A stretch of 20,710 nt of DNA from positions 1 to 20,710 of IMG/VR virus record IMGVR_UViG_3300009181_000440. One strand, written 5' to 3'. Below the pieces are notes generated by a model. It was not told the DNA's origin. It saw only the letters and a list, made by a program, of their open reading frames with translations, and did no database searches. Both the position numbers and the translations under genes were made by a program. Shown here one piece after another: positions 950 to 14,158 of the stretch. Origin of the DNA: a virus. How positions within the stretch are numbered: position 1 is the first letter of the stretch; each line of letters opens with the position of its first letter.

Positions 950-2695
950 ATGACACTGGCAGAACAGCTGACATCATTGATTGCGGGTCTAAATTCCACA
1001 TCTTTTCCCAGACTGATTAAACGGCACGCTGGTATATTTCAGTCATTGATTTCAGCGACCGATAAGTTCAATCCCAAGAACATCAATCATAGAATTTGGA
1101 TAGTAATTCACGGTGAACCGCCAGTATGCAGTCAAGGCAATCAGTTGCAATTCAACACCTGGACCAAGGGTTACAGAAAAGGCTGTATACTGGGCAATAA
1201 ATGCCAGTGTGTGGGCGTAATACGAATGAAAGGCCAGCGAGCCACTTTGCAACAGAAGTATGGAGTAACCACAGTAAATGCTATACCTGGTGTCAACGCC
1301 CGCAGAGAACAAACCATGATTGACCGATTCGGGGTTCCGTTTGCAGCCCAGAATGCTGATGTAATGAGTAAACGAAAAGAAACTGTTAAAAATCATTCAG
1401 ATGCCCAACGGGCAGCACGCACACTCCGCGCCCGTGAGACCTTTATACAGCGTTACGGTGTTGATCATCATATGCAGACTGCGGCCAGTCTGGACAAACA
1501 ACAAGCAACTAATATACAACGATATGGTGTTGCTAGGCCCATGCAGAGCCCCGAAATAGCAGCCAAAGCCAGCGCAACTCAGCGGCAACATACTCAGATA
1601 CAGCGTCAACACAAATTATCAGCACAACAACAAACATTATTTACGAATCACGGAGTATCGGCAGCTAGTCGAGTTGGAATAGCTTTATCAGCCTTGGCGA
1701 TACTAGACGACCCAACGCTGTTCACTGAATATGCCAGTACTAGATCTCGTGAGCAAGTCAGTACTGACCTTGGCATTCATATGCATACAGTTTACATGTA
1801 TGCACGCAAACATAACTGTCAATCTGTGTTTCAGAAACCCAGCATGAGCAAGTTTGAACGCGAAGTTGGCGATTTTTTTCTGGGTCTGGGTATAACCACA
1901 GTTTCTGGAGATCGATCTATACTGGCTGGCCGCGAGCTGGATATTTGGGTACCTGATCATCAGTTAGCGGTGGAATGCTCGGGATTATATTGGCATTCAG
2001 AAAATTCCAGTGGCAGAACCAAGGAATATCATGCAACAAAATTTAAATCATGTTGGGCTCAGAATATCAACTTGGTTACTATCTGGGAAGATCAGTGGAA
2101 CAATCAACAAATTCAGATTAAGAATAGAATTCTGCACATGCTTAAACTCAGCCCCAGGGTTGCGTCTGCTAGACAATGTACTGCGAAATTGATAGATAAC
2201 GCCACAGCCGCAGATTTCTTACAACAACATCATCTGCAGGGAAAATCCAGAGCTAAAATAAATTTAGGACTATTTAATAATAATCAATTAGTCGCAGTTA
2301 TGACTTTTGGACAACCCAGATTTAGTACCCATGCTGACTGGGAACTTATACGGTATGCGTGTGCAGGGTCAGTACCAGGGGCGGCGCGGAAGTTGTTTGC
2401 ATATTTTGTCAATGAATATCGTCCAGCATCGGTACTGAGTTATGCAGACAACAGCTGGGGTCCAGGTAATATGTACCAGACACTGGGGTTTGAGTTTGTG
2501 AAGTCACAGACAGGTTACTGGTATACTGATTACCAACACAGATTTAATCGTATGGGATATCAAAAACACAAAATTGTGTCACTGGTTCCTGATGGTGCTG
2601 ACAAAACTGAATGGCAAATAGCACAAGAGCTGGGGTTAGACCGTATATGGGATTGCGGACAAAGCACTTACCAGTGGAGCAGTAAACATAAATAA
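950..2695 (+). CDS. Vsr-like (PD-(D/E)XK/EDxHD) homing endonuclease-type protein with C-terminal GNAT/Mom-like domain (gene A)
   Basis: Free-standing 581-residue protein. The N-terminal ~90 residues carry a Cys cluster (C60, C79, C85, C87) that may bind zinc. Residues ~100-240 contain five repeats centred on YGV/FGV/HGV, a pattern common in phage homing-nuclease DNA-binding regions, followed by a helix-turn-helix-like stretch around 265-288. Residues 300-400 form a Vsr-type nuclease fold: LDIWVP (D331), LAVE (E342), GLYWHS, then H361 and K364. After a linker ending ASARQC (~410), residues ~410-520 resemble a GNAT/Mom-type acyltransferase fold (LGLFNNNQLVAVMTFG; WELIRYAC; VLSYADNSWGPGNMYQTLGF). 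The C terminus ends in RIWDCG, shared with genes B and C. It sits between the tape-measure and portal genes and its stop overlaps a late promoter. I see no Shine-Dalgarno. Endonuclease fold confident; homing role inferred; acyltransferase fold tentative. Confidence 0.75.
   Translation: MTLAEQLTSLIAGLNSTSFPRLIKRHAGIFQSLISATDKFNPKNINHRIWIVIHGEPPVCSQGNQLQFNTWTKGYRKGCILGNKCQCVGVIRMKGQRATLQQKYGVTTVNAIPGVNARREQTMIDRFGVPFAAQNADVMSKRKETVKNHSDAQRAARTLRARETFIQRYGVDHHMQTAASLDKQQATNIQRYGVARPMQSPEIAAKASATQRQHTQIQRQHKLSAQQQTLFTNHGVSAASRVGIALSALAILDDPTLFTEYASTRSREQVSTDLGIHMHTVYMYARKHNCQSVFQKPSMSKFEREVGDFFLGLGITTVSGDRSILAGRELDIWVPDHQLAVECSGLYWHSENSSGRTKEYHATKFKSCWAQNINLVTIWEDQWNNQQIQIKNRILHMLKLSPRVASARQCTAKLIDNATAADFLQQHHLQGKSRAKINLGLFNNNQLVAVMTFGQPRFSTHADWELIRYACAGSVPGAARKLFAYFVNEYRPASVLSYADNSWGPGNMYQTLGFEFVKSQTGYWYTDYQHRFNRMGYQKHKIVSLVPDGADKTEWQIAQELGLDRIWDCGQSTYQWSSKHK
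2687..2694 (+). promoter_or_regulatory. T4-type late promoter-like element for the portal gene
   Basis: CATAAATA overlaps the stop codon of gene A and lies 22 bases before the portal TTG start. It leaves room for the GAGGA ribosome site at 2703-2707. The placement lets the portal be transcribed independently of the inserted nuclease gene. Confidence 0.5.
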
Positions 2696-2716: not shown

Positions 2717-5662
2717 TTGTCCTGGAAAAAATACTTCAAAGCCCCTAATACTGGCGGTGGCCTAAGTCCAATTAATGGCGGAGGTGCTGCTCAGCAGAAC
2801 TTCAAGTTTCAGAATTATGGTAGTCTGCTGCCTGAAGTGTACATGGGCCATCCTAATCGCATTGAACGGTATAATCAATTCGAGAGCATGGACCTTGACA
2901 GTGAGGTCAACAGTGCATTGGACATCATCGGTGAATTCTGCACACAGCCCAACGAACAAAATGGATTAGCATTTGATATTCACTATCATGACAAGCCCAC
3001 TGAGACTGAGATTGGCATCATCAAGAAGCAGTTACAAGCATGGTGTAGCTTAAATCAGTTTGATCGCCGAACTTTCAAGATGTTCAGAAATGTGCTGAAG
3101 TACGGTGACCAAGTATTTGTCAGAGATCCCGAAACATTCAAGCTGATGTGGGTAGACATGAGTAATCTGTTGAAGATCATCGTTAACGAATCTGACGGCA
3201 AAGTACCCGAACAATATGTAATTCGTAACATCAACCCTAACCTGGAAAATATGAGTGTTACTCAGGTCAGTGCTGAAAACTTGTATTACAGTCAGCCTAA
3301 TACTGCTGGCTCAGGTGCATCAGCATACAATACACCCAACAGTCCTTTCAGCAACAACAGCCGGTTCATGCATGGCATCAGAGAAATCACACTGGATGCT
3401 GAAAATATACTACATTTAAGTCTAACAGAAGGTCTGGATGGAACTTGGCCATTTGGCAACAGTATCCTGGAAAATATCTTCAAAGTATACAAGCAGAAAG
3501 AACTGCTGGAAGACTGTATTGTAATTTACCGTGTGCAGCGAGCACCAGAACGGCGTGTGTTCAAGATTGATACTGGTAATATGCCCAGTCACATGGCCAT
3601 GGCGTTTGTGGAGCGTGTGAAAAACGAAATACATCAACGCCGTATACCCAACAGCAATGGCGGACAAAGCTTCATGGACAGCACATATAATCCCATGTGC
3701 TTGGATTTAACTACACGAATTCCGTTACTGGATGGCCGTACACTGCCGTTGGCTACAATCATTGATGAATTTGATGCTGGCAAAGAGAACTGGGTGTACA
3801 GTTGTGATCCCATAACTGGAGAAGTTATGCCCGGGGTAATTGACTGGGCAGGCATTACCAAACGCGATGCTGCTGTAATTAAGCTTACATTGGATAACGG
3901 AGAAGAATTAATTTGTACTCCGGATCACAAGATTCCGGTATTGGGTAAGGGGTTTGTTGCTGCTCGGGATCTCACCACTACAGATAGCCTGATCGCATAT
4001 AATACACAAGATAAAAAAATATCTAACAAATCATCTGAATATCAACAAGTTTGGGACCATAAATCCAAGTCCTGGGTATGGACTCATAGAATGGTAGGAG
4101 AATTTTTCAGAAAACTCAGTAAACATCAAGAATTTACATATCTTGAAGAAAATATTAGTAAAACTAAAGCTGTAATTCATCACAAAGACAGCGATAGATA
4201 CAATAACGACCCAAGCAACCTTGCTTACATGAACAAAGCTGATCATATCTTATATCATGCAGCTCAAAAGAAAAAATTCTGGGATGAAATGACACCAGAA
4301 TACCGGGCTCAGATGACCGGGAAGATTTCTGCAACAGTCAAAGATAACTGGAATAATTTAACACCTCGGGCTCGTCAAGTAGCTTTGGATAATATTCGTT
4401 CAGCACAGAAAAAAGCTATATGGATGCGACAGCATGATCCAACTACTATGGCAAATTATAAGAAAAATGCCGGGGCAAGTAGACGCGGGTACATTCAAAA
4501 AAATCCTGCTTGTAAGCAGCAACTACTTAAAAATTTAGAAAATCGTGTTTTCTTACAGAATCAGCACATAAATTTGACTCAAGAAATGCTGGGTGTTGTG
4601 GTAAATATTGTTAAATCAAACTCTACAAACAAGAATCAAGTACTGGATATTTGCGATCACCACACTGAATTATTGTCGTTAGTTAAACAAGCCAATCCGA
4701 TCATTGATGGTGTCCAATGTAAAATTGATTTCTCTAAATGGGGTTACAGTAAGATGGATAGGTTACTGAACCAGTTTGGTTATAAAAATTGGAAGACATT
4801 TGTTAAAAATGTTGACTTATATAATCACAAAATTGTCAGTATTGAAACTGTGGAGTCACGTGATGTGGGTACTATTACTGTTGACGGTAAAGAAAGATGG
4901 CATGCACATCATACATTCGCCATTGAGTCTGGCATATTCGTTAAGAACTCAATAAATGAGGATTATTTCTTCCCACAGACTGCTGATGGTCGTGGTAGCA
5001 GTGTGGATATCCTGCAGGGCGGGCAGAATCTAGGAGAAATAGATGATCTTAAATTCTTCACCAACAAGATGTTCCGTGGTTTAAGAATTCCCAGTAGTTA
5101 CTTGCCCACTGGCGCTGAAGATTCAGCAGCAGTACACAATGATGGTAAAGTAGCCACAGCATTGATTCAGGAACATAGATTTAATCAGTATTGTATGCGG
5201 TTACAGTCACTGATATGCAAGCCACTGGATACAGAATTCAAAGCATTCCTGATGTGGCGTGGATTCAACCTGGACAATACCATGTTTGAGCTGCGCATGA
5301 ATGAGCCACAGAATTTTGCTAAGTATCGCCAGGCTGAAGTAGACACTGCGAAAATTTCCAGCTTTAGTCAGCTGGAACAGACGCCCTACATGAGCAAACG
5401 TTTTATGATGAAGCGTTATCTGGGACTAAGTGAAGAAGAAATCCTGGAAAACAATAAGATGTGGCGTGAAGAAAACACCAAGCCTGAAGAAGCCGCTGAA
5501 GTAGACAGCAGCCTGAAGAATGTAGGTATCACATCTGGCAACATGGAAAGTGATCTGGAGTCACTAACACCACCTGAACCTGGTCCCACAGAAATCGGAG
5601 CAGAACCCATCACAGCTACCCCAGTTGCACCGCCACCCACTGGAACCGCGCCCACGGCATAA
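2717..5662 (+). CDS. 20: Portal protein gp20 interrupted by an intein (precursor)
   Basis: 981-codon precursor. The start is TTG, supported by GAGGA at 2703-2707 and by the N terminus SWKKYFKAP. Residues 1-327 and 745-981 are the exteins and join to a 564-residue portal, close to T4 gp20 (524). Recognisable portal motifs are the N-terminal GSLLPEVY...NRIERYNQFESMD, the SALDIIGEFC region, YGDQVFVRD, and after the intein SINEDYFFPQTADGRGS, then GGQNLGEIDDLKFF and MFRGLRIPSSYLP. The dodecameric portal forms the special vertex of the head: it nucleates prohead assembly and is the channel for DNA packaging and ejection. The C-terminal ~40 residues are Pro/Thr-rich and probably disordered. Function requires protein splicing of the intein. 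It begins the head-gene cluster, followed by core, protease, scaffold and capsid genes as in T4. Confidence 0.92.
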   Translation: MSWKKYFKAPNTGGGLSPINGGGAAQQNFKFQNYGSLLPEVYMGHPNRIERYNQFESMDLDSEVNSALDIIGEFCTQPNEQNGLAFDIHYHDKPTETEIGIIKKQLQAWCSLNQFDRRTFKMFRNVLKYGDQVFVRDPETFKLMWVDMSNLLKIIVNESDGKVPEQYVIRNINPNLENMSVTQVSAENLYYSQPNTAGSGASAYNTPNSPFSNNSRFMHGIREITLDAENILHLSLTEGLDGTWPFGNSILENIFKVYKQKELLEDCIVIYRVQRAPERRVFKIDTGNMPSHMAMAFVERVKNEIHQRRIPNSNGGQSFMDSTYNPMCLDLTTRIPLLDGRTLPLATIIDEFDAGKENWVYSCDPITGEVMPGVIDWAGITKRDAAVIKLTLDNGEELICTPDHKIPVLGKGFVAARDLTTTDSLIAYNTQDKKISNKSSEYQQVWDHKSKSWVWTHRMVGEFFRKLSKHQEFTYLEENISKTKAVIHHKDSDRYNNDPSNLAYMNKADHILYHAAQKKKFWDEMTPEYRAQMTGKISATVKDNWNNLTPRARQVALDNIRSAQKKAIWMRQHDPTTMANYKKNAGASRRGYIQKNPACKQQLLKNLENRVFLQNQHINLTQEMLGVVVNIVKSNSTNKNQVLDICDHHTELLSLVKQANPIIDGVQCKIDFSKWGYSKMDRLLNQFGYKNWKTFVKNVDLYNHKIVSIETVESRDVGTITVDGKERWHAHHTFAIESGIFVKNSINEDYFFPQTADGRGSSVDILQGGQNLGEIDDLKFFTNKMFRGLRIPSSYLPTGAEDSAAVHNDGKVATALIQEHRFNQYCMRLQSLICKPLDTEFKAFLMWRGFNLDNTMFELRMNEPQNFAKYRQAEVDTAKISSFSQLEQTPYMSKRFMMKRYLGLSEEEILENNKMWREENTKPEEAAEVDSSLKNVGITSGNMESDLESLTPPEPGPTEIGAEPITATPVAPPPTGTAPTA
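3698..4948 (+). mobile_element. In-frame intein with HNH homing endonuclease inside the portal gene
   Basis: 417 residues (328-744 of the precursor), bounded by Cys1 (CLDLTTRIPL) and a terminal Asn followed by Ser+1 (FVKN|SINEDY). Block A is CLDLTTRIPL, block B is LICTPDHKIPV with the T-x-x-H motif, and the C-terminal blocks are VSIETVESRDVGTITVDG and HHTFAIESGIFVKN. The residue before the terminal Asn is Lys rather than the usual His. Between the splicing blocks, around precursor residues 486-517, is an HNH-type endonuclease: IHHKDSDRYNNDPSNLAYM, then H and YH downstream. A Lys/Asn-rich segment (~520-690), probably DNA-binding, follows. The intein sits at the conserved EDYFFP-preceding position of the portal, corresponding to the stretch before EDFFLP in T4 gp20. 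Intein and boundaries are well supported; splicing activity is inferred. Confidence 0.9.
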
Positions 5663-5665
5663 ATA
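5658..5665 (+). promoter_or_regulatory. T4-type late promoter-like element
   Basis: CATAAATA overlaps the portal stop codon and ends five bases before the ATG at 5671. It has the same sequence as the element before the portal gene. The downstream gene has no visible Shine-Dalgarno, so it may be translated from a leaderless message or by coupling to the portal. Confidence 0.4.
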
Positions 5666-5670
5666 ATCAT

Positions 5671-5883
5671 ATGCTGCTAACTGAAATATATACTGCTGGT
5701 GCTCCTGGGTATAACCAGCCCAAGAACGATCAGAGCGAGCCCAGTCTCGGGGATGTAAGAAAAACTCGTCTCACACTGAGTCAGATTAATTCTCTGAGAT
5801 TGATGAACGATGTTCGTCGCTTTGAGGAAGAACATCGCCTAACTGACATACAGAGACAGTTTGGTGCTAAACCAGCTCAGTAA
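5671..5883 (+). CDS. Small prohead core-like protein (gp67 position)
   Basis: 70 residues, charged, with a predicted helical second half (TRLTLSQINSLRLMNDVRRFEEEHRL) and no membrane segment. It occupies the slot between portal and protease where T4 has the small core protein gp67, which is of similar length (about 80 residues). The N terminus MLLTE ends in L-T-E, which fits the (I/L)-x-E cleavage consensus of gp21-type proteases; removal of a five-residue leader is possible. The ATG lies nine bases after the portal stop, without a clear ribosome site. I do not recognise the family by sequence; the core-protein call rests on position, size and the protease site. Confidence 0.6.
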   Translation: MLLTEIYTAGAPGYNQPKNDQSEPSLGDVRKTRLTLSQINSLRLMNDVRRFEEEHRLTDIQRQFGAKPAQ

Positions 5884-5935
5884 TTTCAGAATCAGCGGTT
5901 TTGAGCTTTAATACTGGGGTTTTCTGTGTAGTAGA

Positions 5936-5943
5936 GTAAATAC
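5936..5943 (+). promoter_or_regulatory. Possible T4-type late promoter
   Basis: GTAAATAC is a weaker match to TATAAATA, 28 bases before the ATG at 5972 and upstream of its AAGGAG site. The spacing suits an ordinary short leader. Confidence 0.35.
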
Positions 5944-5971
5944 CTTTACGAATTCATTGCAAGGAGATCCT

Positions 5972-6844
5972 ATGGGACGTAACTTTGAAAAACTAATTGA
6001 GCATATCATTAATAGTGACGAGGCTGGCGCTCGTAAACTTTTTCACAGCATTGTGGTGAACAAGAGCCGCAGCATCTACGAACAAATTGAAAACGAAGGC
6101 ATGGGATACGGCGCCGAAGAAGAAATGGAAGAGGGCGCTGGTGACTTTGTTGATCAAGTAAACATGGATCATGAGTCAGGCGGCATGATGGAAGCCGATG
6201 ACGAAGACATGGTACCTGAAGATGGTGATGACGAAGACATAGACCTGGGCGGCGCTGACGAAGACATGGGCGTCGAGCATATGGGTGCTGAAGATGTAGA
6301 AGCCCGGGTTGACGATCTGGAATCTGCACTGGATGATCTCAAAGCTGAATTTTCCAAGCTGATGGCTGACGAAGACGACGACGAAGACATGGGCGACGAC
6401 GACGAAGACATGGGCGACGACGACGAAGACATGGGCGACGACGACGAAGACATGGGCGACGAAGACGCAGACATGGACGACGAAGACGAAGAAGACATGG
6501 AAGAAGGCTTCATTCGTGAATACACTGAAAATGTAGGAACACCGTACAAGGGTGGTAAAGTTGCCGGAACTTCAGAACACGACGTCAACTCTCGTAGTGT
6601 AGTTGCTGGTAAGAACAACATGGGTGGTTCTGCCCATAACCTAGCCCAGGGCGGTGAAGCCAAGGGTCGTCCAGCCCCCAGCACCAAGCCAATGAGCAGC
6701 GGCAAGTTCCAGAATGCCCAAGGTGGCGGCTCTGGCAAGCCCAGCGCAGGCCCCAAGGCTGTGAGTAAAGAACAAAGCGGTATCAACAAAGATAGCGTAT
6801 TTGAGTCTCGCAAGACTGTAAAACCTTCAAACAAAAAGAAGTAA
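5972..6844 (+). CDS. Acidic prohead core-like protein (gp68 position)
   Basis: 290 residues when started at the ATG at 5972, chosen because AAGGAG (5961-5966) lies just before it; an in-frame TTG at 5957 lies upstream of that site and is unlikely. Residues 1-45 form a conserved-looking helical head (NFEKLIEHIINSDEAGARKLF, then VNKSRSIYEQIENE). The middle is extremely acidic, with a coiled-coil-like segment (VEARVDDLESALDDLKAEFS) and then four perfect GDDDEDM-type repeats. The C-terminal ~110 residues are Gly/Ser/Lys-rich, basic and probably disordered. Position between a gp67-like gene and gp21 matches T4 gp68, a core protein. The charge split (acidic middle, basic tail) suits an internal scaffold component. 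The family is inferred from position and composition; no enzymatic motif is visible. Confidence 0.65.
   Translation: MGRNFEKLIEHIINSDEAGARKLFHSIVVNKSRSIYEQIENEGMGYGAEEEMEEGAGDFVDQVNMDHESGGMMEADDEDMVPEDGDDEDIDLGGADEDMGVEHMGAEDVEARVDDLESALDDLKAEFSKLMADEDDDEDMGDDDEDMGDDDEDMGDDDEDMGDEDADMDDEDEEDMEEGFIREYTENVGTPYKGGKVAGTSEHDVNSRSVVAGKNNMGGSAHNLAQGGEAKGRPAPSTKPMSSGKFQNAQGGGSGKPSAGPKAVSKEQSGINKDSVFESRKTVKPSNKKK
6374..6457 (+). repeat. Four perfect 21-bp tandem repeats coding (DDDEDMG)4
   Basis: Four identical copies of a 21-bp unit (gac gac gac gaa gac atg ggc) at 6374, 6395, 6416 and 6437, followed by a degenerate copy. The unit is in frame with the acidic core-like gene. Identity at third codon positions points to recent slippage expansion. 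Confidence 0.9.
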
Positions 6845-8679: not shown

Positions 8680-9840
8680 ATGAGTAATCTTTTACTAGAA
8701 AGTCGTTGGAATGATACCAAAGACGCCCTGCTGGAAGGCCTCCAGGGCGGCCGCCGTAGTGTAATGGCTACGGTTTTAGAAAATACCCGCAGAAACCTGC
8801 TGGAAACTGCAAGCAGCGGCGCAACAGCAGCTGGCAATATTGCCACACTGAATCGTGTGATCCTGCCGGTTATCCGCCGGGTGATGCCCACAGTTATTGC
8901 TAACGAAATCGTGGGCGTTCAGCCCATGACTGGCCCAGTTGGCCAGATTCACACCCTGCGTGTGCGTTATGCAGAAACTGACAGCAGCAGCACAGTCGCT
9001 CCTGGCGACGAAGCACTGAGCCCGTTTAAGATTGCTACCACTTATAGCGGTGCAAGCACTGGCAATGCAGCTGGGTCGGCCGCGCTGGAAGGCGCTGGCG
9101 GTAAGAAGTTGAACGTTCAGATTCTGAAGCAGACAGTGGAAGCCAAGACTCGTAAGCTGAGTGCTCGCTGGACATTTGAATCTGCTCAGGATGCACAGGC
9201 TATGCACGGCATCGATGTTGAAGCCGAAATCATGGCAGCCCTGGCACAGGAAATCACTGCTGAAATCGACCAGGAAATTTTGGCTAGCCTGCGCAGTTTG
9301 TCAGCTACCGAAGAAACCTTCGACCAGACCAGCCTCAGTGGTACCGCAACATTTGTTGGTGACGAACATGCCGCACTGGCTGTGTTGATTAACCGTGTTG
9401 CTAACAAGATTGCTCAACGCACTCGCCGTGGCGCAGGTAACTGGGCCGTGGTTAGCAGCGAAGCACTTACTGTGCTGCAGAGCGCAACAACTTCAGCTTT
9501 TGCTCGCACAACTGAAGGTACTTTTGAAGCTCCAACAAACACTAAGTTTGTGGGTACTCTCAATGGTGCAATGAAAATTTATGTGGATAGCTATGCTCCT
9601 GGAGGCACATCAGTACTGGTGGGCTACAAGGGCGCAAGTGAAAGTGACGCAGCAGCGTTCTACTGTCCATACATTCCGCTGATGAGCAGCGGTGTGGTGC
9701 TTGATCCTACTACCTTCGAGCCAGTTGTGAGCTTCATGACTCGTTATGGTTACGTAGAACTCAGCAACACAGCCAGCAGTTTGGGCAACGCGGGAGATTA
9801 TTTGGGCGAAATCACCATCGCAAACGTATACTTCAGCTAA
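8680..9840 (+). CDS. 23: Major capsid protein gp23
   Basis: 386 residues. The T4-type signature region is clear: NIATLNRVILPVIRRVMP, then IANEIVGVQPMTGPVGQI (residues ~55-88), followed by TRKLSARWTFESAQDAQAMHG and the C-terminal half typical of the HK97 fold in gp23. A gp21 cleavage site is likely after Glu42 (NLLE|TASS), which would free the mature shell subunit. It is shorter than T4 gp23 (521), and the stretch between the GPVGQI region and KTRKLSARWT is short, so the surface insertion domain seen in T4 is probably absent. AGGAG (8665-8669) and AGGA (8674-8677) precede the ATG; the former is a typical distance away. No separate late promoter is seen, so it likely shares the scaffold transcript. 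A strong hairpin follows the stop. Confidence 0.93.
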   Translation: MSNLLLESRWNDTKDALLEGLQGGRRSVMATVLENTRRNLLETASSGATAAGNIATLNRVILPVIRRVMPTVIANEIVGVQPMTGPVGQIHTLRVRYAETDSSSTVAPGDEALSPFKIATTYSGASTGNAAGSAALEGAGGKKLNVQILKQTVEAKTRKLSARWTFESAQDAQAMHGIDVEAEIMAALAQEITAEIDQEILASLRSLSATEETFDQTSLSGTATFVGDEHAALAVLINRVANKIAQRTRRGAGNWAVVSSEALTVLQSATTSAFARTTEGTFEAPTNTKFVGTLNGAMKIYVDSYAPGGTSVLVGYKGASESDAAAFYCPYIPLMSSGVVLDPTTFEPVVSFMTRYGYVELSNTASSLGNAGDYLGEITIANVYFS

Positions 9841-9897: not shown

Positions 9898-11574
9898 TCA
9901 CGCAGCACGCCAGACAAATTTAAGTTTACCACAATCCCAAATTCTATCAAATCCCAGTTCTTGCATTCGCTGCCATTCAGTCTGAGTGGAAAATTCCTCA
10001 CAAATCTTGCTTTTAGAGAATTGCAATTTGTGATATCTATGTGAGTAATTTTCCACATAACTTTGCATGGGTGGCACAGTACTGCCTAAGGTGAACCCCA
10101 GAGTATAATACAAATTGCCTTGACTCCAGCGCAAATCAGCAAAGCTATATACAGTCTGTGGAGCAAGGTTGGTGACAAAATGAGAAAATAACTTACTGGC
10201 GCCGCCCACGACTCTGAGCGCACTGGCAAATCGTACCAGTTCATATTCGTCGGTGGATTTTCTTTTGAAGCTCATAACACTGATTAATTCACCATTGTGA
10301 TATAACCCCAGAGAGTATCCCAGATATTTAGGACTGCCTTGAATATGATATTGATCATAGAATGATTTGGCTGTGCTGGACTCCAGATGTTGAACCTGAC
10401 ATTTTCTAGCGAAGACTTTGTGGCTATTCAGTCCCAGCACATCACGCAGTTTGCTCTGTGTTTGCACTTTTTTTAAATTCCACTCATCACTGAACAATGT
10501 GATTAATCTGATGTTCTGCCCCCGACACAGCTGAAGTTTTTTCTGGTGATAATTCCAACTCTTATGACCACCCAGTTCACTGTGCCAATATAACCCGCAA
10601 TACTCGATAGCCAGGTTCAGTTCAGGCAAGTAAATATCTAATTGAAACGGAGTAATCACTGAACGATCACCCTGAATAATCACACCAGAATAAATGGATT
10701 TGATAAAATCAAATACCTGTTGCTCTTCGCCCGACACATACTTAACTTTACTTGGATTACATTGGATACATGATGGAGGAGCAGCATAGTCAAATCGTTT
10801 CTCGAAACAATACCCGCATCTGGTGCATTTAAACTGCATCAGCGGTCTGCTTGCGACTCCGTGGTAATCTGAAACCAGAGTCAATACTATGACTTCCCAG
10901 TTGTTGGTGACCATCTCGCAGAATTTTGGAAAATTCTTTCTGTATAACTCGGCTGGATTAAACTGCTGTGCTCTGGATACTATGCTTTTGTTTTTAACAT
11001 CTGTGTTTTGCATGGGGTTACTGACACCAAATTTCGCCAGTACCGTGTCACGGATCTTGTCGTTAACCCCAGGAATATGGCGTGGATTGCTGACGCCATA
11101 TTTTGCCACCAGTGTAGTTTGCTGTGACAGCACTGCTGTTTTAACATTTTCATCGATATTGTAGAATTCTGTATGTTTTGCTCGAGCAGCCTGACTCTGG
11201 CCACTGTTGCTGACATTGTATCTCAGAAGATTTGTTTCTTCTCTCTTTTGATTAGTAATTTGCTTTTGCAAGGCGGTTTGTGCCTGCTTACTGATGCTGA
11301 CTGATTGAGATACTTGCTGATTAGCACACTGGCATTGACCAGCACGGTTGCAGAAACGCCAACCTTGCAGGAAATTGTGATATTGCTTGGTGTTTCCATT
11401 GATGCAAGTGGGTTCACCATGCAGAATACAGGCAACTTTAAATTTTAATTCATGATTGACATACTGCTGATCAACTTGTGAATCGATCCATGCCATTAAT
11501 TCCGGATTGGCGGAAATCATACGAGTCCAATGTTTTGGATACTGTGTATATAGTTGATGAATTATGTCGGTCAC
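9898..11574 (-). CDS. Vsr-like homing endonuclease-type protein with zinc ribbon and C-terminal GNAT/Mom-like domain (gene B)
   Basis: 558 residues, GTG start. The N terminus has a Cys cluster (C57, C75, C81, C83) aligned with that of gene A. YGV/FGV-type repeats span ~115-205 (AKYGVSNPRHIPGV, AKFGVSNPMQNTDV). Unlike A and C it carries a zinc ribbon, CTRC (250-253) and CIQC (269-272). The nuclease core at ~285-385 has GDRS, LDIYLP (D313), LAIE (E324), GLYWHS, H343 and K346. After the FARKC linker (~388), residues ~392-500 show the same GNAT/Mom-like region as A (SLGLYHNGELISVMSF; YELVRFAS; VYSFADLRWSQGNLYYTLGF), ending in RIWDCG. It converges on gp23 and follows gene C. The start follows a perfect TATAAATA directly, with no Shine-Dalgarno. 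Nuclease fold confident; target site and mobility inferred. Confidence 0.75.
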   Translation of the reverse strand: MTDIIHQLYTQYPKHWTRMISANPELMAWIDSQVDQQYVNHELKFKVACILHGEPTCINGNTKQYHNFLQGWRFCNRAGQCQCANQQVSQSVSISKQAQTALQKQITNQKREETNLLRYNVSNSGQSQAARAKHTEFYNIDENVKTAVLSQQTTLVAKYGVSNPRHIPGVNDKIRDTVLAKFGVSNPMQNTDVKNKSIVSRAQQFNPAELYRKNFPKFCEMVTNNWEVIVLTLVSDYHGVASRPLMQFKCTRCGYCFEKRFDYAAPPSCIQCNPSKVKYVSGEEQQVFDFIKSIYSGVIIQGDRSVITPFQLDIYLPELNLAIEYCGLYWHSELGGHKSWNYHQKKLQLCRGQNIRLITLFSDEWNLKKVQTQSKLRDVLGLNSHKVFARKCQVQHLESSTAKSFYDQYHIQGSPKYLGYSLGLYHNGELISVMSFKRKSTDEYELVRFASALRVVGGASKLFSHFVTNLAPQTVYSFADLRWSQGNLYYTLGFTLGSTVPPMQSYVENYSHRYHKLQFSKSKICEEFSTQTEWQRMQELGFDRIWDCGKLKFVWRAA

Positions 11575-11607: not shown

Positions 11608-13041
11608 TTAACCCAGTAGGACCCAATTCCCACAATCCCAATACCTACGCCAGCCAGCAGCAAACATATTTTCACTTTCGCTCAGTGCTGGGTCAAAGTT
11701 GCTGAGCCATTTGCCTAACTGGTGTTTTTGTGATCGATATCTGGACACAGTAACCGTGCCATTGGTCCAGCAATATCCAGGATCAGTGGTTCTCAGTAAC
11801 TTAAACCCTGCTGCCTGATAACCAACACCATTGCTGATGGATCTGTCGCAATATGTGAGAATCTCAGCACATCCAATAGAGGATTTGGCATAAGCAATCA
11901 GACGACTCAGCCCACCAGTTATGTTTACCCCAGGCTGACTACACATGCGAATTAATTCCCAGGGATATTCCTTGTTCCAACGACTAGCACCAATGGTGAT
12001 GACCTGACTCAGCTGATCTTGATAGAACAAACCAAAATGATGAGCTGCTGCGCCTGCGCCTTGTAAATGATATTTTTTAAGAAAAGTGCTGGATTGTTTG
12101 CTGGTAATAGACTTCACCACACATTTTCTAGCTCCAATTTTTTGATTAACTCCCAACTTGGACTGAATGATACTCTGTACTATGTCAGGTTGATTGTGCC
12201 ATTGCCAGTCAGTGATATGCAGCAAGGTAATACCCAGCTCGGCACATCGCTGAGATTTGATCAGGTGGTGATTTCTCTTTTCTGGAGAGTTTTTGCTGGG
12301 ATGCCAGCTGTGCCAGTATAGTCCGTTGATTTCGATGGCTAACTTGTGAGTGGGTAGGTAAAGATCTAATTCCAGATTACCCAACATATCCCAGTTGCTA
12401 GTTTCATGCGGAACACTCAAGCTGGTCAACCAAGTACTTACTGCCAATTCTTCACGACTGTACTGACTACGTTGCCGAATAACCACTCCGAATTTTTTTA
12501 GATGATCTGACACTGTGCTGTAGTAGATACCCAATTGATCTGCGATATCCACCAGACTGCGGGATTGATTGATATATTGTTCTCTGAGCCAAGTCTCATC
12601 GTTCAACAATGCAGATACCGCATCTGAAGTTTTGTGTTTACTCCAGATATGGTGTATATCAGCCCGCTGACTATTGTAAGCTACGCCATATGTGGTCAAC
12701 ATGGTGTCTTGTCTCTTTTGTTTAATTGATACCTTTTTGTCGGCTGTGTAAGAACACTTGGCTATACTGACTTTTTTACTGAAATTCTGTGCCAGACATA
12801 CACAGGTTTTTGCTGGCCCGCAATATCCCCACCCGGCTTGTTGATTCAGCAGTGGCTGACTACATCCCTGTGGACACATACCCGGGGTGCCAGACACTGC
12901 ACTGAAAATTGTCGCTGCTATGGACCCCTCTGTGATCTGAGTATTGGCTAACACCCAGGACCACATCTCTGAGTTTTTTTTAATTATCTGGCTGTATCGT
13001 TTGGGATGATTTAGGATTATTTCTTGGATTTCAGTACGCAT
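11608..13041 (-). CDS. Vsr-like homing endonuclease-type protein with C-terminal GNAT/Mom-like domain (gene C)
   Basis: 477 residues, ATG start, the shortest of the three paralogues. The N terminus has a Cys cluster (C56, C60, C74, C80, C82) like A and B. Only one clear YGV repeat remains (TTYGVAYNSQ, ~117-125), followed by a helix-turn-helix-like stretch (LVDIADQLGIYYSTVSDHLK, ~163-182). The nuclease core has LDLYLP (D226), LAIE (E237), INGLYWHS, H258-H259 and K262. After the GARKC linker (~303), the GNAT/Mom-like region is recognisable but more divergent (HFGLFYQDQLSQVITIG; WELIRMCS; ILTYCDRSISNGVGYQAAGF). The C terminus ends in RYWDCG. It is the middle gene of the minus-strand island and has its own late-promoter-like element and a GTAGAAGG ribosome-site candidate. 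Nuclease fold confident; biological role inferred. Confidence 0.72.
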   Translation of the reverse strand: MRTEIQEIILNHPKRYSQIIKKNSEMWSWVLANTQITEGSIAATIFSAVSGTPGMCPQGCSQPLLNQQAGWGYCGPAKTCVCLAQNFSKKVSIAKCSYTADKKVSIKQKRQDTMLTTYGVAYNSQRADIHHIWSKHKTSDAVSALLNDETWLREQYINQSRSLVDIADQLGIYYSTVSDHLKKFGVVIRQRSQYSREELAVSTWLTSLSVPHETSNWDMLGNLELDLYLPTHKLAIEINGLYWHSWHPSKNSPEKRNHHLIKSQRCAELGITLLHITDWQWHNQPDIVQSIIQSKLGVNQKIGARKCVVKSITSKQSSTFLKKYHLQGAGAAAHHFGLFYQDQLSQVITIGASRWNKEYPWELIRMCSQPGVNITGGLSRLIAYAKSSIGCAEILTYCDRSISNGVGYQAAGFKLLRTTDPGYCWTNGTVTVSRYRSQKHQLGKWLSNFDPALSESENMFAAGWRRYWDCGNWVLLG

Positions 13042-13114: not shown

Positions 13115-14158
13115 TTAACTGTTCTGGTGGTAATGATTTAATTTATGCCACAGGTTTTCTGTGGCAAATTTTTCAGCCATACTCAGGGCATCAGCAGTAC
13201 CAAAGGTATGTGATGCTGCTTTAATTTCATGCTGAATACCCTGCAACACTAGGTTTTTAGCGTGGGTGGGGGTGATGCCATGATGGTCTGCCAGATCAAT
13301 AATTCTCCATTTAGATTTCAACGCTTTAACAAAATCTGGTAAAGTATACCTATTACGCTGCAATATTTCTATTATTTTGTTAGCAGTATCATAATTGCGG
13401 CTGGCAGGTTTTCGCTCGTTGCTGAGGTCAGTATCCAGTCCCAGCACATCCTGTGGGCGCCATTGATACTTGACGTTGTACAGCAGTTTAGCTGCTCTGG
13501 GACTTAGGTCAGCAGTGTTTTTTTTGTGCCAAAGTTCCAGCCAGTCTGCCAGATAATTGCTGGATCCATAGTCTTTACGAGTTGCTGGAGTACCCACTGA
13601 CATGAAATTTAATTGTTTTGAACTCAGTGCGCGGGCTTTATTTTGTGTCAGCCAATTTTTTGGATTAGCATATCCCCACAGTGGTATTCCCCGACGTTTA
13701 GCTATCAATCGTATATGTCTCAGCAGTTTACCGTACAACCGGGCCAAGTCTGGATTTTGAATAACTTCACCCACCAGCACATGTATTTCAGTAATAGCAT
13801 CAGCTGGTATACTGGGTTTCTTACTGAACACTCTGTCTTCTTGCTCGCTGGTGCGATTTGGGTTTCTCCCCCAGTAATCCACAGCAGCACTGCGATAGTG
13901 GCGATTAAACCAGTCGCCGTTTAATTTAAACACTACTCCGTCGTTGGTGTTTTTCTCATGATACCCGCCTGCACGGCTGCGAGATGTACTGAAGAAAAAT
14001 GGATACCCCGACGGTTGCATAGTATTTTCGTAAGAGCTGCCCACAGTACTGCTGAGCTTAAATTGCCAGGTTTTTAAAATTTCCGCAGCACCTTGCATAT
14101 TGGTATAATGATACACCACATCATGCACCCGTTCTGTGAGTAGTTCTTGGATTACCAT
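13115..14158 (-). CDS. ADP-ribosyltransferase-fold-like protein, candidate virion-packaged effector
   Basis: 347 residues, unrecognised by name. Residues 14-130 show a pattern seen in ART-fold (ADP-ribosyltransferase-like) proteins: VVYHYTN (H17, Y18) at the start of the domain, a helix AAEILKTWQFKLSS, then YPFFFSTSRSRAGGYH (STS 57-59), DGVVFKLNGDWF, and SEQEDRVFSKKPSIP, where E105/E107 could serve as the Glu motif, ending ITEIHVLV. The C-terminal ~200 residues are of unknown function; the last 90 look helical. The N terminus MVIQELLTE ends in L-T-E, a gp21-type cleavage site, so the first nine residues could be a prohead-targeting leader, as on T4 internal proteins and the packaged ADP-ribosyltransferase Alt. 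A TATAAATA promoter and a GCAGGA site precede the ATG. The ART call is motif-level only; catalysis and packaging are hypotheses. Confidence 0.5.
   Translation of the reverse strand: MVIQELLTERVHDVVYHYTNMQGAAEILKTWQFKLSSTVGSSYENTMQPSGYPFFFSTSRSRAGGYHEKNTNDGVVFKLNGDWFNRHYRSAAVDYWGRNPNRTSEQEDRVFSKKPSIPADAITEIHVLVGEVIQNPDLARLYGKLLRHIRLIAKRRGIPLWGYANPKNWLTQNKARALSSKQLNFMSVGTPATRKDYGSSNYLADWLELWHKKNTADLSPRAAKLLYNVKYQWRPQDVLGLDTDLSNERKPASRNYDTANKIIEILQRNRYTLPDFVKALKSKWRIIDLADHHGITPTHAKNLVLQGIQHEIKAASHTFGTADALSMAEKFATENLWHKLNHYHQNS

Follow-up and report, generated by a model that had tools for sequence, protein, structure and literature searches.

In a T4-like phage, three genes of the head region, here called A, B and C, each encode a predicted nuclease joined to a domain resembling Mom, the DNA-modifying enzyme of phage Mu. 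The genes lie on a 20.7-kb virus record that was analysed over its whole length (20,710 nt; hereafter, the window), in which a hub-like ORF is followed by A, the portal gene with an HNH intein, prohead genes, gp23, B, C, a 347-aa ORF, a chitinase-like gene and tail genes, with B, C and the 347-aa ORF all on the minus strand (Table 1). The proteins encoded by A, B and C matched two PHROG families, phrog_3339 (homing endonuclease; E = 1e-114, 1e-104 and 3e-90, respectively) and phrog_559 (E = 1e-76, 6e-74 and 3e-84), the matches covering the greater part of A and of B and, in C, the later portion. A phmmer search of A against PDB sequences returned no match, nor did an NCBIfam search with A. Elsewhere in the window, the portal intein (approximately 3700–4950, +), which carries the HNH endonuclease, is variable among close relatives, being present in the portal of locus L005 and absent from those of L003 and L004. 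The ORF at 5957–6844 (+) contains a run of GDDDEDM-type acidic repeats, and the 347-aa ORF (13115–14158, −), which separates C from the chitinase-like gene, matched nothing in Pfam or NCBIfam at E up to 1 or in PHROG at E up to 0.1.

Table 1. Coordinates of the three genes, their domains and the neighbouring genes in the window.
Feature	Position (nt)	Strand	Description and basis
Gene A	950..2695	+	Intact 581-codon ORF; Hef-type homing endonuclease with Mom-like domain; between baseplate-hub-like ORF and portal gene
A: N-terminal Cys cluster (C60, C79, C85, C87)	1127..1210	+	Probable zinc-binding element
A: YGV/FGV helical repeats, DUF7487 (PF24308)	1259..1669	+	Pfam E 6.6e-16, above cut-off; probable DNA-recognition module
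A: Vsr-type nuclease core (residues 298–402; D331, E342, H349, H361, K364)	1841..2155	+	Fold match to 3hrl and conservation
A: Mom-like GNAT domain (residues 403–581)	2156..2692	+	Pfam Mom, hhalign, Foldseek, VIA
Portal protein gp20 (with intein)	2717..5662	+	Pfam Portal_T4; flanks A insertion site
Major capsid protein gp23	8680..9840	+	Pfam Gp23 E 1.5e-99; flanks B/C insertion site
Gene B	9898..11574	−	Intact, 558 aa; convergent with major capsid gene; YGV-type repeats and zinc-ribbon-like CxxC pair
B: Mom-like domain	9901..10449	−	Core residues intact; in family alignment; HypA-like zinc ribbon and nuclease upstream in gene
Gene C	11608..13041	−	Intact, 477 aa; upstream of B, same strand; one YGV repeat and helix-turn-helix
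C: Mom-like domain	11611..12129	−	Pfam Mom just below cut-off; core residues intact
C: Vsr-type nuclease core (approximate bounds)	12130..12459	−	Pfam Vsr 18.4 bits, below 27-bit cut-off; core residues present

All three proteins have one layout in common: a Cys-rich N-terminal region is followed by YGV repeats or a different DNA-binding module, then by a Vsr-type nuclease, and finally by a GNAT domain at the C-terminus. The nuclease is marked by ELDIWVP, QLDIYLP and ELDLYLP in A, B and C, respectively, and by GLYWHS in all three, and the linker by ARQC, ARKC and ARKC; W/YEL-I/V-R, Y/F-A/C-D and GF follow in the C-terminal part, which ends in RIWDCG (A and B) or RYWDCG (C). Among 85 non-redundant relatives (pairwise under 85% identical), R408, H428, R468, G477 and G570 (A numbering here and below) were 100% conserved and D331, E342, H349, D500 and Y509 99% conserved, with nuclease core and Mom core both intact in 80 of them; such conservation of shared motifs is far beyond chance. 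In the N-terminal part of A, C60, C79 and C85 were nearly invariant (64 relatives), and the four YGV/FGV repeats, at residues 104, 127, 169 and 192, were helical in the predicted structure. Models were made for A, both as the full protein and as the C-terminal domain alone. The full-length AlphaFold2 model, built with 63 relatives, reached a mean pLDDT of 93.9 but a pTM of 0.62, indicating well-defined domains whose arrangement relative to one another is uncertain.

An ELDIYIP...E...GLYWHS arrangement is that of Vsr, and the Vsr-type nuclease proposed in the initial annotation is borne out by the model of A, residues 298–400 of which matched 3hrl with Z 12.6 and rmsd 2.0 (88 of 94 residues). 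The five core residues were intact in 84 of the 85 relatives, the sole exception being a truncated frame. This fold match, together with the Vsr-like motif D...E...G-x-x-W-H, likens A–C to Vsr and the EDxHD nucleases, although none of the three reached the Pfam Vsr cut-off (A and B gave no Vsr match); I-Bth0305I, an example of the EDxHD type, is intron-encoded. DNA cleavage by A–C is a prediction.

The C-terminal part had been proposed to be GNAT- or Mom-like, and both profile and structure comparisons place it nearest to Mu Mom. Against the Pfam Mom family (PF25680; gathering cut-off 27.1 bits), A scored 30.5 and C 26.2 bits, with no match for B. Alignment of eight stand-alone phage Moms to the C-terminal domains of the 85 relatives with hhalign gave a probability of 98.5 (E 2.6e-15) and matched Mu Mom H58, G81, E108, R111, D149, G156 and Y159 to this domain. 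The isolated GNAT domain of A was modelled with a pLDDT of 94.6 and a pTM of 0.81, and its first Foldseek match in the PDB was Mu Mom (8bv8; E 1.2e-9, with the next GNAT at 3.3e-6), which was also the best match of the full-length model. In VIA, the domain aligned to 8bv8 with Z 14.5 (130 residues, rmsd 2.6), yet several ordinary GNATs acting on proteins or small molecules fell within one Z unit, so that the substrate cannot be read from the fold alone. For the Mom-like fold itself, our confidence is high.

To place A–C within a family, their relatives were collected. In tblastn searches, relatives of A occurred in 407 GenBank phage records, and at least 580 were found in IMG/VR. All three proteins aligned with Hef of Enterobacteria phage U5 (AY262133), which is encoded between nrdA and nrdB and has the same layout; its match to A was 30% identity over 440 aa (E 2e-45). 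According to PMC3322345, Hef is an active endonuclease that has sites close to its own locus and resembles no known homing endonuclease; PMC2988022 states that it cleaves nrdB. Apart from U5 Hef, the Hef-like proteins F-LimIII, F-LimVII, F-LimVIII and F-LimX, those of Acj9 and CP220, and Hef34 of NCTC12673 resemble A–C in nuclease and C-terminal domain as well as in location, as free-standing genes beside conserved ones. Homing endonuclease identity is supported at the level of the family, and we assign A, B and C to the Hef family with high confidence. The domain order and motifs noted initially for A–C are real, but the fusion is not special to the window: the three genes are ordinary members of a widespread phage family, some of which carry the GenBank label 'putative nuclease/acetyltransferase protein'.

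Among 109 nuclease-bearing ORFs, 103 had the Mom domain, six lacked it and none consisted of Mom alone, in a sample whose retrieval with full-length queries favours the fusion. One GNAT-less relative (L021:3565–4695, +; 377 aa) retains a closely related nuclease and the WDCG end, and directly precedes a full-length member at 4695–6698. Prokaryote genomes contained 45 relatives, about 28 of which extend into the C-terminal domain; as these are mostly on metagenome-assembled contigs, the family is mainly one of phages.

With the family in hand, individual Mom positions could be compared. The residues invariant in the eight stand-alone Moms (H58, E108, D149 and Y159) and Mu R111 correspond to H428, E465, D500, Y509 and R468, and these, as well as G477, are intact in A, B and C. 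With a GNAT fold modelled for A and these residues kept in all three, the cofactor pocket does not look destroyed. The domain also contains a glycine-rich V-x-G-(G/A) turn; such a turn is where GNATs bind the acyl-CoA pyrophosphate. H428, R468 and G477 were invariant in 115 of 115 distinct members. At position 500, 101 of them, including A, B and C, have the Asp that is kept in all eight solo Moms, 13 have Asn (the T4-type genes of TG1, Acj9 and Lazarusvirus, CP220 and one contig; loci including L091, L092, L093, L096 and L273), and Bakedbeans has Arg. U5 Hef likewise carries Asn, and the N-terminal modules of U5 Hef and the Hef-like proteins named above also differ from those of A–C. We considered whether the Asp is lost in phages with hypermodified bases, but abandoned the idea because F-LimVIII and PBS1, whose phage DNAs are modified or unusual, keep the residue.

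The proteins also differ from Mu Mom. Mu Mom is a stand-alone protein of 241 aa without a nuclease, whereas A–C are fusions with a distinct, WDCG-bearing C-terminal end. The title of 8bv8 calls the S124A mutant inactive; Ser124 falls opposite position 476, which varies among members (P, V and T in A, B and C), in a loop where the alignment is uncertain; position 480, one helical turn further, is Ser in most members and Arg in A. As the Ser124 position is not conserved, we refer to the domain as Mom-like rather than as Mom.

Family members adjoin genes for portal, gp23, tail sheath, gp21, tail tube, terL or nrd. In a tree of 58 nuclease–Mom sequences, insertion site required 10 changes, as opposed to 26.9 under shuffling, where none of 200 replicates reached so low a value, a difference to which near-identical phages contribute. 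All seven portal-adjacent genes, including A, formed one clade (support 97), B grouped with gp23-adjacent genes (support 98), and C with the likewise gp23-adjacent gene of L004 (support 100). The term 'three paralogues', if taken to mean local duplicates, was hence mistaken: A, B and C belong to three separate clades, and a single clade of the three was rejected (p-AU 4.9e-59).

The sites themselves are variably filled. In the fetched relatives, which are a non-random sample, the portal site was occupied at seven and free at 84 loci, and the gp23 site occupied at eight and free at 60. The interval between gp23 and the chitinase-like gene holds one Hef each in L004, L005 and L017, which represent different lineages, and two in the window; in L004 and L005 it has room for one Hef gene only. 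In Acinetobacter phages of the genus Lazarusvirus, the gp23–gp24 junction contains a Hef gene in opposite orientation; in Minot and Acj9, this junction is bare. In these respects the genes behave as Hefs do, standing alone next to conserved genes and occurring in some related phages but not in others. For F-LimVIII (L267:5093–6947), the GenBank record shows tail tube gp19 and tail sheath gp18 as the flanking genes; the LIMEstone paper places it between tail tube and portal.

Pooled over seven Lazarusvirus genes, without two recombinant ones, omega was 0.055 for the nuclease, 0.089 for the Mom domain and 0.17 for the N-terminus, the pairs being non-independent. Purifying selection on this Asn-type domain implies either that it has a function there that does not need the Asp, or that the Asp is not essential for catalysis. 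The two recombinant genes, from KARL-1 (L097 5114–6655) and LemonAid (L268 1–1404), share 90–100% DNA identity with other Lazarusvirus Hefs in N-terminus and Mom domain, but 42–64% in the middle, i.e. the recognition module and the first half of the nuclease. Here the targeting part was exchanged naturally while the Mom domain stayed constant. Distance correlations as a measure of domain co-inheritance (nuclease–Mom 0.40; the two Mom halves 0.36; random column splits 0.50–0.65) were uninformative.

Taken as a whole, the favoured reading, to which we give an even chance, is that A–C are free-standing Hef-type homing endonucleases with a Mom-type domain that acylates adenines in DNA and thereby marks their own target as self. 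The N-terminal Cys cluster, together with repeats, zinc ribbon or helix-turn-helix, would guide the protein to a target close to its gene. Where a co-infecting genome is without the gene, the Vsr-type nuclease would cut this target, and recombinational repair would then copy the gene into the cut genome. Acylation of adenines by the GNAT domain may mark the carrier's own target as self, much as in a one-polypeptide restriction–modification enzyme. Homing is supported by homology to U5 Hef, the site-linked tree, and the occupied and empty sites among relatives. DNA acylation we rate as about evenly balanced; against it stand the variable Ser124 position, the tie with ordinary GNATs in VIA, the Asn of the T4-type clade, the Arg of Bakedbeans and the existence of a GNAT-less relative. 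Self-protection is plausible, at lower confidence than acylation. More tentatively, a working DNA acyltransferase would let the homing endonuclease cut rivals without a changed target sequence, with the Asp lost secondarily in the T4-type clade.

The same observations may be read differently. In Hef-type homing endonucleases, the Mom-like domain might be a reused fold that is no longer a DNA acyltransferase and binds DNA or scaffolds the nuclease. This is rather unlikely in our judgement, but it would fit the replacement of the conserved Asp by Asn or Arg in the T4-type clade, CP220 and Bakedbeans, in the first of which the domain is nonetheless under purifying selection, as well as the unkept Ser124 position and a domain that stayed near-identical in KARL-1 and LemonAid while the protein middle was exchanged. 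However, a pure scaffold need not retain a Mom-like active site, yet most members, A–C included, have kept the Asp, H428, R468 and G477 never vary, and the V-x-G-(G/A) turn sits at the place that contacts the acyl-CoA pyrophosphate in GNATs.

A restriction–modification fusion, in which Mom would give the phage genome broad protection and the nuclease would be aimed at DNA of the host or of a superinfecting phage, without any homing, was published as a proposal for jumbo-phage REase–Mom fusions (Iyer et al., PMC7824862) and would suit genomes with many copies, for example the 10–11 matching places in LR756500 and NCTC12673. We consider it improbable for A–C, since adjacency to the same essential genes, a site-linked phylogeny and a mixture of occupied and empty sites are what homing predicts, and the literature presents U5 Hef as a homing endonuclease cutting close to its own locus. 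Acylation of a protein, such as a host or repair protein, would be compatible with the many protein N-acetyltransferases lying within one Z unit of Mom in VIA, but is very improbable: by sequence, the nearest family is the DNA-modifying Mom, 8bv8 has a better Foldseek E-value than the other GNATs, and the fusion partner of the domain is a DNA nuclease.

Neither the nuclease–Mom fusion nor the restriction–modification idea is new. Both were published in 2021 for jumbo phages (Iyer et al., PMC7824862), where homing goes unmentioned; there, too, a restriction-fold nuclease is joined to a Mom domain, and PA5oct, with five momylating enzymes, is among our matched records (5 places), whereas the phage in the window is T4-like. 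Two literatures thus deal with the same proteins, as Hef homing endonucleases and as REase–Mom fusions, with no cross-naming in the literature searched. Our search, which covered few subscription papers, found no paper joining Hef and Mom, and the Hef literature covered does not discuss the C-terminal half as Mom-like, although U5 Hef itself is a nuclease–Mom fusion. Hef is reportedly able to cleave the DNA of its own phage; if this holds, there would be a problem for a modification domain to solve. Joining the two literatures opens to direct experiment the question of how a free-standing homing endonuclease can keep its target and yet not cut its own genome.
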